Under the pieces are notes generated by a model, which saw only the letters and a program-made list of their open reading frames with translations, did not search any database and was not told the DNA's origin. The position numbers and the translations under genes are program-made. A stretch of 32,269 bases of DNA from a bacterium. GTDB taxonomy: Bacteria > Armatimonadota > HRBIN16. Within the stretch, counting starts at the first letter, position 1. Each line of letters opens with the position of its first letter. The stretch is taken from the NCBI GenBank assembly GCA_025057335.1, contig JANWXG010000004.1, forward strand, positions 1 to 32,269, written 5' to 3'. This document shows positions 5,905 through 32,269 of the stretch, one piece after another.

Positions 5905-7080
5905 ATGGCGGAACGTCTGACAGTAGCACACATCAGTGATACCCACCTGGGGTATCGTTCCCTCTCCAAAGAAGACCCCAAAACGGGGGTTAACCAGCGT
6001 GAGGTAGACGTGTATCAGGCGTTTGCCCATGCCATGCGTGCCATTGCAGAGGCGTCTCCTGACCTAGTGCTCATCACGGGCGACCTTTTCGACAAGAAGG
6101 TGCCCAGCATCTGGTCGCTACGTCGGGCTTTTCGGGTGCTGCGCACGGTGCAGGAAGCGCGTCGTGGCAAGCCGCTCCTCTTGCTGGGAGGTAATCACGA
6201 TACCCCTCGGATGCGCGAAAGCAGCGCGGTCTTCCCGCTGTTCGAGGAGATACCTGGCGTGAAGGCAGTGTATGGACTACCCGAACGGGTGTATCTGCCT
6301 GAGCTGGACGCAGCAGTGATGTGCGTGCCCGCAGCGAGCATCTCCCAGCTGGCGGAGGAGAGGCTGCAACTCGATCCAGACCCGCAGGTGGGGTTCAACC
6401 TCCTGGCAGTGCATGGCGTGCTGCAGGGGATGTTCACTGCGGAGTACACCCCGTTCTTTCTGCCTAGGTCGCGTGTACTAGACGACCGTTGGAACTACAT
6501 CGCCCTGGGAGACTATCACGACTTCCGCCAACTGAGCCCGAACGCTGCCTACGCGGGCGCAACGGAGTTCACTACCACAAACATCTGGAGCGAGAGCCGC
6601 AAGAAGGGCTGGGTGTGGGTAGAGCTGCAACAGGGGCAAGCTCCTGTCCTCCGTCATCGCCCTGTTCCCACGCGCCCCGTAATCAGCCTGCCTGATGTGG
6701 ATACCTTGCAATATGGTTCCTCCGACAAGGCGGTCGAGCACGTGCTGGAGGAGGCACAGCGAGAGCAGATTGCTCAGGCGCTGGTACGAGTGCGCCTGTT
6801 TAACGTTCCCTACGGGGAGCGCGCTAGGGTGCAGCGTGCCATTGTAGAGGGGATGGCGAACGCTTTTCATGTACAGGTGGATTTCCGTACAACGCTTCGT
6901 TCCCCTCTCTCTGCGGGGGAACAGCAAACAGAGACCACAGTGACGCAGCCGGTCGAGGAGCGCTGGCGTCAGTTCGTCGAAGCGCATCGAGAGAAGCTGC
7001 CTGCGGGAATCACGGCGGAGGAGGTACTCCAGCGTGGCTTGGCAGCGCTGAGCGCGGTTGGGGAGGAGATGTCCCGATGA
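5905..7080 (+). CDS. sbcD: SbcD/Mre11-type DNA exonuclease subunit
   Basis: A 391-residue calcineurin-like phosphoesterase of the SbcD/Mre11 family, the nuclease partner of SbcC/Rad50 that trims DNA ends, hairpins and protein-blocked ends. The metal motifs are in order: D12 and H14 (ISDTHLG), GDLFD (59-63), GGNHD with N97-H98-D99, AVHGVLQG, then GDYHD where many relatives have GH.H. The C-terminal part (after about 270) is diverged and would hold the capping and SbcC-binding regions. Translation is coupled on both sides: 1 nt after the upstream stop, and its TGA overlaps the sbcC ATG by 4 bp. Confidence 0.92.
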   Translation: MAERLTVAHISDTHLGYRSLSKEDPKTGVNQREVDVYQAFAHAMRAIAEASPDLVLITGDLFDKKVPSIWSLRRAFRVLRTVQEARRGKPLLLLGGNHDTPRMRESSAVFPLFEEIPGVKAVYGLPERVYLPELDAAVMCVPAASISQLAEERLQLDPDPQVGFNLLAVHGVLQGMFTAEYTPFFLPRSRVLDDRWNYIALGDYHDFRQLSPNAAYAGATEFTTTNIWSESRKKGWVWVELQQGQAPVLRHRPVPTRPVISLPDVDTLQYGSSDKAVEHVLEEAQREQIAQALVRVRLFNVPYGERARVQRAIVEGMANAFHVQVDFRTTLRSPLSAGEQQTETTVTQPVEERWRQFVEAHREKLPAGITAEEVLQRGLAALSAVGEEMSR

Positions 7081-10055
7081 GGCTACATCGTCTGCGTCTG
7101 ACGAATTTTCGGCAGTATCTGGAGTTAGACCTCACTTTTGACGATGGCATCACTGCCATCATCGGGGCGAACGGCTCGGGCAAGAGCACCCTGCTGGAAG
7201 CCATCTGCTGGGCGCTGTATGGAGCGGACGCACTGCGTAGCAACGTGGCAGAGGTGCGTCCCCTCTTCTTGAGCCTGCTCGACGGCGCTACAGGGAGAGC
7301 ACAAGGCACGAACCCTCGGGCAGTGCTAACCTTCTCGCTCAGCGGCACAGTATATGAGGTCGAGCGCACGCCTCAGGGGGCGCGACTGTATCGTCTGCAA
7401 CCGGAGCGCGAAGCGATTGCGGACGGCACGAAAGCGGTCAACCTGAGCGTACAGCGTCTACTGGGAGGCATGACCTACCGCCAGTTCCTCACCTCCTTCT
7501 TCGCACAGCAAGGCGAGTTGGAGTTCCTCAACTTCGACAAGGCGCGCCGACGCGAAGAGGTGCTGCGGATGCTGGGTTTGGAGCGCGTTACCCGCAGCGT
7601 GAAGTGGATGGAAGAGGAGCTCGCGAGACAGCGCGCCGAGCTGCGTGGCAAGCAGTCCGCGCTGCCCGACCCCGATATGGTGAAGGCGCAGCTGGAGCAG
7701 GCGCAAGCGGAACTGGACGCCGCACGCGACCAACTGCAGACGGCAGAACGCACCTTTGCCAACGCAAGAGCAGAATGGGAGCGGTGGAAGCCCGCTTTTG
7801 AGCAATGGAGCGCGAGAAAGACCGCCTACGATAGCCTACGCATGCAAGCGCGACTGCTGGAGCAGAATGCGCAGACACAGGAGGGCGAACTGCAGCATCT
7901 TGCCAGAGAGCTCGAGGAGGCGCAGGCGGCACGAGAGCGCATTGAGCAACTGCGGCCTCAAGGCGAACGCTACAAACAGGTGCGTGAGCAGCTGCGCCAG
8001 ATGGAGGACCTGCAGCGCTACGCACAGCGCCGAGCGGAACTGCAGGTGCAGCTGGAAAACTGGTTCCGTCAGGCGCAGGAACGAGAGCAACAGGTCCAGC
8101 AAGTCGAAGCGGACCTCAACCGCCTGCTTAGTGAGAAGAAGCAGCTGGACGCGCAGGAGCAGCATCTCCGCGAGCTACAGGAGCAGGCGACACAGGCGCA
8201 ACAGTTGCAGAAAAGATTGGAAGAGTTAGACAAATTGTCGGTCGACGTGCAGAAACAGGTTGCCGCGCTAAAGGCGAAGAAGACCGCTCTAAAAGAACAG
8301 CAAAAGCAGCTTTTGGAGCAGATTGCCTTGCTGGAGGAAACAGAGAGAGAGGAAGAGCGCCTTGCTGCACTCGTACAAGAGGCAACGGGTAGAGTGCACG
8401 AGCTGGAAACGGAGCTGAGCCGCCTAGAGCGCCAGCGTGCCAGCGCCATTGCCAGCGCCGCAGCGGAAGCGGAGAACGTTCGACGTCAGATGCGCGAGCT
8501 GGAGGAACGCCGGCAGAAGGTAGAGGCATTAGGTCCCGAAGGCGAATGCCCTGTGTGCACGCGCCGTTTGGGCGAAGAGTATGCCAGTGTCGTGAGCCAT
8601 TTCGAGCAGGAACTACGGGAGGCGGAAAGACGACTGCAGGCGGCGCTCAGCCGCCAAGCAGAGGCGGAACGGGACACCGAAGCCATCGAGCAGTGTCGCG
8701 CGAACTTGCAGGAGGCACGTGATGACCTGCAACGATATCAACAGCAATTGGCACGCCTGCGGGAGCGGCTGCGCCAGCGGGAGAGCTGGATTCGAGAGGA
8801 GCAGAACCTGCAACAGCAGATACAGGCAGTGCAAAAGCAACAGGAGCAGATTTCCGCGTCGTACAGCGCGGAGGAACACGAGAAGGTTCGACGGCAGGTG
8901 GAGCAACTCCAGCCCATCGTGCAGCAGGCGCTAACGGAGCAACAGGTCTGGCGCGAACGCTACAACGTTTGGCTGCGCGATATGCAGAAGGTGCAGAACC
9001 AGCTGAGAGAGCTCAGCGACGCACTGGAGCAATCGAGACGTGCTATCCAGAGCGCTGAAGTAGAACTACAGCAGCTGCCGACGGGCTACGATGCGCTCTT
9101 GCACGAACAGCTACGTCAGGAACGGGACGAGCTACAGCCAGCATGGGACGAGGCGATTGCGTTGCACCCTGTTGCCAAACGCCTGCCTGAACTACAAGCG
9201 CGTTTTCAGGAGGCGCAAACCGCCTTAAAGGCGACACAGGAACAGCTTCAGCAGACCCATCAACAGCTGCAGTCGCTCGCCTACGACGAAAAGGAGTACT
9301 TGCAAGTCACAGAGCGGTTCGCGGAGTGCGAGCGAGCCCTACGCGAGGCAGAAACCCAGGTGCAGGTGTTACGGGAGCGGGTGACGCAGAAGGAGGCGCA
9401 GCTGGCATCAGCACAAGAGCAGTGGCAGCGTGTGCAGCAGCAACTGCACGAGCTGCGCCAGCTGCAACACGCGGTGTTGTGTGATGAGACCACGCGCGAC
9501 TGGCTGCGAGAGTTCGCTGACCTACTAAACGGCGAAATCGCACCCGAGCTGCAGGAGCGGGCAGGGGAACTGCTCAACCTGCTGACAGACGGGCGTTACA
9601 TGCAGTTGCAGATGAGTGAGGACTTCGAGTTCACCCTACTGGACGAGGGACGCCCCAAGCCTATCATCTCGGGAGGCGAGGAAGACATCGTGAACCTCAG
9701 CCTACGCTTGGCGATGGCGGAGATGATCTGCGAGCGCAGTGGTCAGCCGCTGGGGTTGCTGGTGCTGGATGAGGTATTCGGTTCACTGGATGCCGACCGA
9801 CGCGAGAACACCCTGCAGCTACTGCGCCGCCTGCGCGAGCGATTCGCCCAGATTATCCTCATCTCGCACATCGAGGAGATACAGGCTGGCGCTGACCGTT
9901 GTCTGAGGGTGGACTATGACCCCAGTCGGCATCGCAGCACGGTGCGTGAGGTCAGCTCGTTCACTGCAGAGGAGCTGCTGACAGACGAAGAGCCTGCTGA
10001 GATGGTCGCGGCGCAACCTGCGCCGCAGCAATGGGGAGGCTTGTTTGATAGCTGA
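7077..10055 (+). CDS. sbcC: SbcC/Rad50-type SMC-like ATPase
   Basis: A 992-residue ATPase that works with SbcD on DNA ends. The N-terminal ABC half has Walker A GANGSGKST (residues 30-38) and a Q-loop region near 141-155. Two long coiled-coil arms rich in Gln, Glu, Arg and Leu run from about 170 to 480 and 505 to 790. They are joined by a zinc hook, CPVC (C491-C494), which dimerises through a shared zinc. The C-terminal half has the signature SGGEE (865-869) and Walker B LLVLDEVFGSLD (D898, E899). Length and layout are typical and intact. It starts at an ATGA overlap with sbcD; its TGA shares one base with the next ATG. Confidence 0.95.
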   Translation: MRLHRLRLTNFRQYLELDLTFDDGITAIIGANGSGKSTLLEAICWALYGADALRSNVAEVRPLFLSLLDGATGRAQGTNPRAVLTFSLSGTVYEVERTPQGARLYRLQPEREAIADGTKAVNLSVQRLLGGMTYRQFLTSFFAQQGELEFLNFDKARRREEVLRMLGLERVTRSVKWMEEELARQRAELRGKQSALPDPDMVKAQLEQAQAELDAARDQLQTAERTFANARAEWERWKPAFEQWSARKTAYDSLRMQARLLEQNAQTQEGELQHLARELEEAQAARERIEQLRPQGERYKQVREQLRQMEDLQRYAQRRAELQVQLENWFRQAQEREQQVQQVEADLNRLLSEKKQLDAQEQHLRELQEQATQAQQLQKRLEELDKLSVDVQKQVAALKAKKTALKEQQKQLLEQIALLEETEREEERLAALVQEATGRVHELETELSRLERQRASAIASAAAEAENVRRQMRELEERRQKVEALGPEGECPVCTRRLGEEYASVVSHFEQELREAERRLQAALSRQAEAERDTEAIEQCRANLQEARDDLQRYQQQLARLRERLRQRESWIREEQNLQQQIQAVQKQQEQISASYSAEEHEKVRRQVEQLQPIVQQALTEQQVWRERYNVWLRDMQKVQNQLRELSDALEQSRRAIQSAEVELQQLPTGYDALLHEQLRQERDELQPAWDEAIALHPVAKRLPELQARFQEAQTALKATQEQLQQTHQQLQSLAYDEKEYLQVTERFAECERALREAETQVQVLRERVTQKEAQLASAQEQWQRVQQQLHELRQLQHAVLCDETTRDWLREFADLLNGEIAPELQERAGELLNLLTDGRYMQLQMSEDFEFTLLDEGRPKPIISGGEEDIVNLSLRLAMAEMICERSGQPLGLLVLDEVFGSLDADRRENTLQLLRRLRERFAQIILISHIEEIQAGADRCLRVDYDPSRHRSTVREVSSFTAEELLTDEEPAEMVAAQPAPQQWGGLFDS

Positions 10056-15141: not shown

Positions 15142-15403
15142 TCCCTGAGCCGTGCGCTGATATTCTACAAAATCGAGGGCAGGCTTGTAAAGGGGGATTC
15201 GGGGCGTCCTGAAAAAAATTTTCTTTATCTGAATCAGGAAGCTCACGGCGAGCAACGTTGTTGCCCGACGTGCGGTCTTAGGAACCTACGCGGGTTATTA
15301 CTCCCCCCACTGGCTGGATTCCTGCCCTCCGAAGACTCCGACGTGTTCCAGAGGCTGGTTGAGATGCTTCGCTCACGCTCAGCATGACATCAAGCGTCCT
15401 CCT

Positions 15404-15461
15404 GAAGTCCCCGTTGTTTGTCCAGGGGAAGCACTGACGTGCTTCACTACCAGCTGAAGAG
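15404..15461 (-). repeat. 58-bp dispersed repeat, inverted copy of 29807-29864
   Basis: The reverse complement of this segment matches 29807-29864 at 53 of 58 positions by my count. It contains one GTAGT stem-loop and a flank containing GACAAACAAC. The surrounding sequence does not match. Confidence 0.75.
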
Positions 15462-15661
15462 TGCGTTGTGTGCGCTCGGGTGCAAGGGCGCGCCATGCTG
15501 GTAGTGGCGCACTGACGTGCGCCGCTGTCATCCTGAGCGGAGCGGAGAATCTCGTGCTCCTTTCGCGGTCGCTCGGCATGACACACATCTGTCACGCGCC
15601 CCCAGCAGGCTGGGAGCCTGCACTACAGGCGGGAACGCTCGTAGTGCGCACTTCAGTGCGC
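15428..15661. repeat. Four REP-like stem-loops with a GTAGT foot, alternating orientation
   Basis: The copies are: GAAGCAC-TGAC-GTGCTTC then ACTAC (15428-15450, minus); GTAGT then GGCGCAC-TGAC-GTGCGCC (15501-15523, plus); GCAGGCT-GGG-AGCCTGC then ACTAC (15605-15626, minus); GTAGT then GCGCACT-TC-AGTGCGC (15641-15661, plus). Every unit has a 7-bp perfect stem with a different sequence, and the GTAGT foot is always on the 5' side of the stem on its own strand. REP elements are known for a 5' GTAG/GGAG foot beside a palindrome. Confidence 0.7.
15527..15582. repeat. Dispersed stem-loop repeat, GTCATCCTGAGCG family, copy 3
   Basis: The unit starts GTCATCCTGAGCG and ends CGCTCGGCATGAC, an imperfect inverted repeat around a short purine-rich loop. 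It starts 3 bp after a GTAGT stem-loop. Confidence 0.65.
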
Positions 15662-29644: not shown

Positions 29645-30013
29645 CGCGCTGTGCTAAGCCGAAAGCAAAGGGTGTAGCGTGATGAGGGGATCGTGCCGAG
29701 CGATGGCGAAGCATCGCTGTGGTCTAGCCCTCACCCCCGCCCCACTCCTGTTAGGAGAGGGGAGTAGACCCATCTCCCACTGGGAGAAGGGGATGGGGAA
29801 TGAGAGCTCTTCAGCTTGTAGTGAAGCACGTGAGTGCTTCTCCTAGACAAACAACAGGGACTTCAGATGACACAGACGCGCTGGCGTGCGCACGACGGAC
29901 AGGGGGCGGGAAGCGCCCTCTCTCATCCAAAACAGGAAGCCTTATCCGGGTGCGAGGAGAGAGGCGTTCTGTCGTCCCTCCACAATAGAGACTGTGCGGT
30001 AGGAGGAGGAAAG
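29645..30013. other. Intergenic region with several small hairpin repeats
   Basis: No gene seen. It holds AGCGATG-gcgaag-CATCGCT (29699-29718), which may help end the pepP transcript but has no T-tract. It also holds a CTCCTGTTAGGAG hairpin (about 29741-29762), a CTCCCACTGGGAG hairpin (29774-29786) and the 58-bp repeat at 29807-29864. The part after 29865 carries no recognisable promoter that I would defend. Confidence 0.6.
29807..29864 (+). repeat. 58-bp dispersed repeat containing a GTAGT stem-loop
   Basis: Matches the reverse complement of 15404-15461 with five differences in 58. Inside is GTAGT followed by GAAGCAC-GTGA-GTGCTTC (29818-29840). Confidence 0.75.
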
Positions 30014-31549: not shown

Positions 31550-31794
31550 TGAATCTTCTGTGCGGACGCGACGGAGCGTATCCCTCCAAACGGTAACCTG
31601 ACGAATTATCTGGAGGGTCATGCTCCGTCATGACCTTTGTGGACACGACAGAGCGCGTCCCTCCAGTTTGGGCGAGTAGTGCTTTGGAGGGTCACGCTCC
31701 ATTGTGACCCTGTGTGTGGACGCGACGCAGCGCGTCCCTCCAATTTGGGCGAAAGTGGCACTGGAGGGTCACGCTCTGTCGTGACCTCCTGTTC

Positions 31795-31842
31795 GTAGTG
31801 CAGGCTTCAGCCTGCAAAGAAGCGCACTGAAGTGCGCACTAC
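31795..31842. repeat. Inverted pair of GTAGT stem-loops inside the array
   Basis: GTAGT then GCAGGCT-TC-AGCCTGC (31795-31815, plus), a short AAAGAA linker, then GCGCACT-GA-AGTGCGC and ACTAC (31822-31842, minus). The same family occurs at 15428-15661 and 29818-29840. Confidence 0.7.
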
Positions 31843-31965
31843 CAACACAGTTTTTGGAGGGTCACGCTCGGTCGTGACCCCACGCATGGACGCGACGGAG
31901 CGCGTCCCTCCAACGGGAAACATTGCGGGCAGATGCGGCAAAGCGCGTCCCTCCAATGGGCTGTG

Positions 31966-32039
31966 AGCCCACCATTGAAATGGTGGGCTATGAGGAGAGG
32001 AAAACCTGCCTGCGCAGGTTCTCATCCGCGCAAGCGGAT
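31966..32039. repeat. Three consecutive perfect stem-loops
   Basis: AGCCCACCAT-TGAA-ATGGTGGGCT (31966-31989), a 10-bp stem; AACCTGC-CTGC-GCAGGTT (32003-32020), 7 bp; ATCCGC-GCAA-GCGGAT (32024-32039), 6 bp with a GNRA-type loop. Two weaker copies of the GGTGGGC arm follow at about 32057-32106. No open frame or T-tract is associated. Confidence 0.65.
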
Positions 32040-32269
32040 TTCGGCTTCGCATACCTCCCGACTTCAGTTGGTGGGCGACACCCGCCGTCATGGAAGTGGT
32101 GGGCTGTGAAAAGAGCGTCGCCCCGAGACAATCTGTGCATGGACGCGACAGAGCGCGTCCCTCCAAATGCCCCTGATGGCGGAGGTGACGGAGCGTGTCA
32201 TTTTTGGCTATCCCCTCGCTTTTCTCACCCCCCCGTCGTGGTGGATGGCAGAGCGACTACGGCGCAGTG

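Follow-up and report, generated by a model that had tools for sequence, protein, structure and literature searches.

The window, meaning here the whole 32,269-nt stretch of DNA that was analyzed, contained seven short hairpins with a common build, each consisting of an unpaired GTAGT foot followed by a perfect stem of 6–7 bp and a loop of 3–4 nt (Table 1). Four of them were intergenic at 15.4–15.7 kb, between dnaE and the gene encoding a CAAX protease. One at 29.8 kb was also intergenic, between M24 peptidase and 5'-nucleotidase-like genes, and two at 31.8 kb were in intergenic DNA downstream of the 5'-nucleotidase-like gene. A long ORF with a GTG start at 29834, in the 29.8-kb unit, probably has its true start further downstream. 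The window also carried adjacent genes for an SbcD-like phosphoesterase (5905–7080) and an SbcC-like ATPase (7077–10055); SbcCD-type nucleases clear long perfect palindromes.

The initial annotation had placed GTAGT units at 15428–15661 (four), 29818–29840 and 31795–31842 (a pair), and all seven were recovered there. It had also described every stem as a perfect 7-bp helix; the perfect pairing was borne out, but the units at 15641, 31795, and 31822 fold with 6 bp and a 4-nt loop. Folded as ssDNA, each of the seven units gave a foot and a hairpin, with z-scores of -3.1 to -5.8. The feet-inside (TT) dimer at 15428–15523 folded as two hairpins flanking a stem built from both feet and the ends of the spacer. 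An Rfam search of the window returned no match.

Table 1. Repeat units and dimers in the window, with positions counted from its first nucleotide.
Feature	Position	Strand	Sequence or remark	Basis
REP unit, type A	15428–15450	-	GTAGT GAAGCAC gtca GTGCTTC	Read from sequence and fold
REP unit, type B	15501–15523	+	GTAGT GGCGCAC tgac GTGCGCC	Read from sequence and fold
TT dimer (feet inside)	15428–15450 with 15501–15523		Heterodimer, type A with type B; 50-nt spacer	
TT-dimer spacer	15451–15500		50 nt; mean identity 67% among six spacers of that length (shuffled 24%)	
REP unit, type C	15605–15626	-	GTAGT GCAGGCT ccc AGCCTGC	Read from sequence and fold
REP unit, type D	15641–15661	+	GTAGT GCGCAC ttca GTGCGC; feet-inside partner of 15605–15626	
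REP unit, type A	29818–29840	+	GTAGT GAAGCAC gtga GTGCTTC, then conserved outer flank TCCTAGACAAACAACAGGGACTTCAGATGACA	
REP unit, type C	31795–31815	+	GTAGT GCAGGC ttca GCCTGC	
REP unit, type D	31822–31842	-	GTAGT GCGCAC ttca GTGCGC	
HH dimer (feet outside)	31795–31815 with 31822–31842		Heterodimer; 6-nt spacer	
GGAG-foot REP unit	31611–31635	+	TGGAG, then GGTCATG ctccgt CATGACC	
GGAG-foot REP unit	31641–31665	-	GGACGCG class, one mismatch	
GGAG-foot REP unit	31685–31709	+	GGTCACG class, one mismatch	
GGAG-foot REP unit	31718–31742	-	GGACGCG class	
GGAG-foot REP unit	31762–31786	+	GGTCACG class	
GGAG-foot REP unit	31855–31879	+	GGTCACG class	
GGAG-foot REP unit	31888–31912	-	GGACGCG class	
GGAG-foot REP unit	32141–32165	-	GGACGCG class	
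Other repeat, often an inverted pair	15360–15389 and 15526–15585		TGTCAT(T/G)CTGAGCG...GAAGAATC	
Third palindrome type	31966–31989		AGCCCACCAT tgaa ATGGTGGGCT	

Eight further hairpins, between 31611 and 32165 (31.6–32.2 kb), had a GGAG foot, with TGGAG-GGTCACG units on the forward strand alternating with TGGAG-GGACGCG units on the reverse strand. They represent a second REP family, built like the GTAGT family, and the interleaving of the two families that had been noticed near 31.7–31.9 kb is real and extends over 31.6–31.9 kb. The GGTCACG form occurred in 217 copies in the window's own genome assembly (G000; 80% complete, 452 contigs), 199 in G007 and 110 in G003, and its stem changed from GGTCACG/CGTGACC to GGTCGCG/CGCGACC with pairing retained. 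Two repeats of other kinds were also present in the window. In a 717-kb sample of G000, TGTCAT(T/G)CTGAGCG had 76 exact matches and its reversed pattern 0, and CCCACCATT was found 13 times, against 2 times reversed.

Counted over the whole G000 assembly, the GTAGT family comprised about 290 copies dispersed over many contigs, with 119 matches to type A (GAAGCAC), 100 to type B (RGCGCAC), 42 to type C (GCAGGCT), and 29 to type D (GCGCACT), and 0 matches to the reversed pattern of each type. This is the genome-wide count that the initial annotation had suggested, and it shows that the units are not confined to the window. Statistics on pairs and positions were taken from the 717-kb sample, in which ten contigs (∼135 kb) were chosen for holding matches; these somewhat inflate the density in the sample but not the whole-genome counts. 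When every perfect 7-bp hairpin in the 717 kb was tallied without a preset motif, the most frequent 5' pentamers were TGGAG (91) and GTAGT (56–57). GTAGT stood directly before a perfect stem 47 times and directly after one 0 times in the same sample, so the foot is strictly one-sided at the 5' end and does not occur equally on both sides of the stem.

The expectation that the stems had changed while remaining paired was likewise confirmed. Among units picked by their left arm and inner three pairs, 165 of 192 outer stem pairs matched, compared to a shuffle maximum of 132. Since outer pairs still match in units picked without them, the AA/TT and GC/GC stems change together. The units were also largely extragenic, with only 3 of 110 clear units inside ORFs of at least 200 aa in a crude ORF-based gene set, although such ORFs made up 76% of the sequence.

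Alternating orientation, another feature of the initial annotation, went beyond chance, with 66 of 80 neighbors within 150 nt opposed in the 717-kb sample (p = 1.6e-9). The opposed pairs comprised 47 TT dimers and 19 HH (feet outside) dimers. Every one of the 66 combined a stem of class A/C (GAAGCAC, GCAGGC) with a stem of class B/D (GGCGCAC, GCGCAC), while the maximum after shuffling of types was 48 of 66; the classes were grouped post hoc, when the pairs had already been seen, but the absence of homotypic pairs (0 among 66) is independent of the grouping. The same rule held in 44 of 44 pairs when only strictly called units were used. Spacers fell into length classes of 14, 35, and 50 nt for TT dimers and 36 nt for HH dimers, with a mean identity of 55–79% as opposed to 24–29% for shuffled sequences. 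Tandem arrays were also observed. At L205:9546–9682 in G000, four type A units followed each other in one orientation at 38-nt steps, an exception to the alternation. At L213:8391–8615 in the sister species G006, five GTAGTGCGGACTTGAGTCCGC units lay in tandem in a single orientation at steps of exactly 51 nt, with alternating pairs elsewhere.

Comparison with sister species revealed about 26 GTAGT-type units in G007, about 20 in G006, and 0–5 in each of seven other species of the genus; outside the genus, there was one doubtful match to the patterns. These counts imply that the GTAGT family is common to the genus and was expanded in the species of the window. The gap between dnaE and the CAAX protease gene was ∼680 nt in the window, with four units and conserved flanks, and ∼90–220 nt in G001, G005, G006, and G007, with no units. 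Because the short sister gaps do not align, the insertion points at this site are unreadable; the dimers had conserved spacers and the 36-nt HH linker, and comparison of the dnaE locus revealed no base-precise empty site.

When the genus was searched for Y1 transposases, G006 proved to carry one intact RAYT gene, at L213:4844–5443 on the minus strand. Its product matched NCBIfam NF047646 (REP_Tyr_transpos) with 98.8 bits (cut-off 80), had the HUH motif NHYH and a tyrosine region, YIHYNPIKHG, in alignment, and had E. coli TnpA-REP (4ER8, E 6e-9) as its best solved relative. Within the locus L213:4701–5698, GTAGT hairpins flanked the gene on both sides: each flank carried a GCACGC(-)/GCAGGC(+) heterodimer, and one flank carried in addition two GCGCAC units identical to type D of the window. 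These flanking hairpins are thus of types C and D and a GCACGC type, and do not include types A and B, which dominate in G000. No RAYT was found in G000 with Pfam PF01797, the G006 protein as query, or NF047646, in an assembly that is 80% complete and in 452 contigs. The mobilizing RAYT of that genome may have been lost, may not have been assembled, contigs being broken at repeats, or may lie elsewhere.

Relatives of the G006 enzyme in the phylum adjoined similarly built hairpins that differed in stem and foot. The G001 gene (L215:4451–5421), whose product was 37% identical to the G006 enzyme, lay amid closely packed GGAGT/GGACT-GCGGAAGC hairpins, forming a REPtron with a different foot. Relatives of the G006 enzyme in G056 and G010 adjoined GGAGT-GCGGTAGC and GGAGT-GCCGCA hairpins, respectively, and the RAYT of G011 was between GTAGTG-TCGGCG hairpins. 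The RAYTs of G003 (L212) and G009 (L211) were rejected as obvious cognates, being without flanking GTAGT hairpins, save for one GTAGC hairpin beside L211. At L214:5223–5938 in G008, and also at L268, L269, and L271, RAYT genes were split by, or adjoined, hairpins of the GTAGGGGC type, as though REPs had entered the gene.

The GTAGT hairpins are a new family within a known kind of repeat, the REP palindromes. Copy number, the one-sided foot, covariation, extragenic position, dimers, and the RAYT of a sister species all support the REP-family reading of the initial annotation. The units in the window are very probably GTAG-tagged REP elements, mainly in REPIN/BIME-like opposed heterodimers of an A/C with a B/D stem, spread in trans by a RAYT, the spread being judged from homology. 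Cleavage of hairpins and strand transfer by RAYTs are known for enzymes of E. coli, Stenotrophomonas, and Marinomonas (PMC8266576). By homology, a RAYT, as an HUH/Y1 single-strand endonuclease acting in trans, would have recognized GTAGT hairpins in single-stranded DNA, made a cut next to them and transferred the strand, by which dimers would have spread into intergenic DNA. The family would then have expanded in the lineage of the window's species, and the cognate RAYT would since have been lost or be missing from the G000 assembly. The present copies in the window would be passive and non-coding, with at most a local influence on RNA ends.

That the units might resemble each other through a common function at gene ends, as intrinsic terminators or stabilizers of mRNA 3' ends, is suggested by their being extragenic hairpins that could be transcribed, and secondary roles of this sort are known for REPs elsewhere (PMC3733652). 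Intrinsic terminators were rejected, however, given that no T-run followed the stems, whose flank consensus was cCct.Gacaaacaac, and a search at the units gave no terminator-like site. The foot, loop, spacers, and outer flanks were also conserved in sequence, a constraint that a terminator would not impose, and gene ends were not clearly favored (31 unidirectional, 14 convergent, and 12 divergent contexts). A common function at gene ends is a very improbable source of the likeness. Chance can be discounted almost entirely: short hairpins are common at 60% G+C, and the window held 35 perfect ones, but the reversed-pattern controls gave 0 against 29–119 matches, and other arbitrary feet preceded 0–4 hairpins against 56–57 for GTAGT. 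GTAG and GGAG also preceded many but are REP feet, and the counts refute an origin as chance hairpins.

Since the dimers form inverted repeats whose spacers and flanks are conserved, they could also be taken for ordinary MITEs, left behind by a DDE insertion sequence bounded by terminal inverted repeats and unrelated to a RAYT. Yet single units exist, feet-inside and feet-outside arrangements both occur, and the spacers vary by class. Moreover, the GTAG foot is the guide motif of RAYTs, and the sole gene found between such hairpins was a RAYT. An origin as MITEs thus has little to recommend it and is slightly less credible still than a role at gene ends, while a GTAG-tagged REP family mobilized by a RAYT is the favored reading.

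Exclusive heterodimers exist in some REP families, for which an escape from SbcCD has been suggested, and the high frequency of heterodimers among REP dimers lacks an obvious explanation (Di Nocera and colleagues, PMC3733652). The SbcD/SbcC-like gene pair in the window may be linked to the heterodimer rule. A tentative proposal, held with rather low confidence, concerns the strict hetero-class rule of the GTAGT family, paralleled in the window by the alternating GGTCACG and GGACGCG stems of the GGAG family. The rule could reflect a RAYT for which the two ends of a mobile unit differ, or an SbcCD-type nuclease that clears perfect palindromes. As part of the same proposal, the RAYT clade of the phylum and its REPs might have changed jointly between GTAG and GGAG feet, in a natural change of guide sequence.

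Nothing relevant on REP or RAYT in Armatimonadetes was found in the open-access papers searched. TrpE and TrpD were closest to those of an Armatimonadetes MAG (62% and 53%, respectively), which is suggestive of that phylum; a TrpG tree did not resolve the placement. The present results extend REP/RAYT systems to a lineage that is probably Armatimonadota, and the REPtron of the sister species G006 names a candidate mobilizer. With its exceptionless hetero-class pairing, the family is well suited to studying why heterodimers are so common among REP dimers, and the GGAG-foot hairpins beside related RAYTs, as a natural switch of guide sequence, are useful for studying the choice of cleavage site.

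The GTAG-tagged REP superfamily comprises families GTAG-1 to GTAG-24 (Di Nocera, De Gregorio, Rocco 2013, PMC3733652), and the GTAGT units, compared by described build, resemble them in the unpaired GTAG at one end, stems of 6–9 bp, loops of 2–4 nt, complementary stem changes that define sub-families, and intergenic position. They also share the arrangement in TT (tag inside) or HH (tag outside) dimers with few tandem HT copies, and the occurrence of heterodimers. In contrast, the foot is extended here to GTAGT, the hetero-class pairing is without exception in 66 opposed pairs, and the lineage is outside those listed for the superfamily (Proteobacteria, Cyanobacteria, Chloroflexi, PVC). The G006 locus is similar to a REPtron (Nunvar 2010, PMC2817692) in having GTAGT hairpins on both sides of a RAYT with an HUH motif and a tyrosine region, but the RAYT belongs to a sister species, the searches of G000 having found none, and the feet beside relatives of the G006 enzyme elsewhere in the phylum are GGAG or GGAC, compared to the GT(A/G)G and GTAG variants of the REPtron papers. 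With the BIMEs of E. coli (Y and Z REPs), the family shares two related REP types, alternating orientation and conserved spacers, although the sequences are unrelated and the stems here are of 6–7 bp with no bulge, whereas those of E. coli are bulged.
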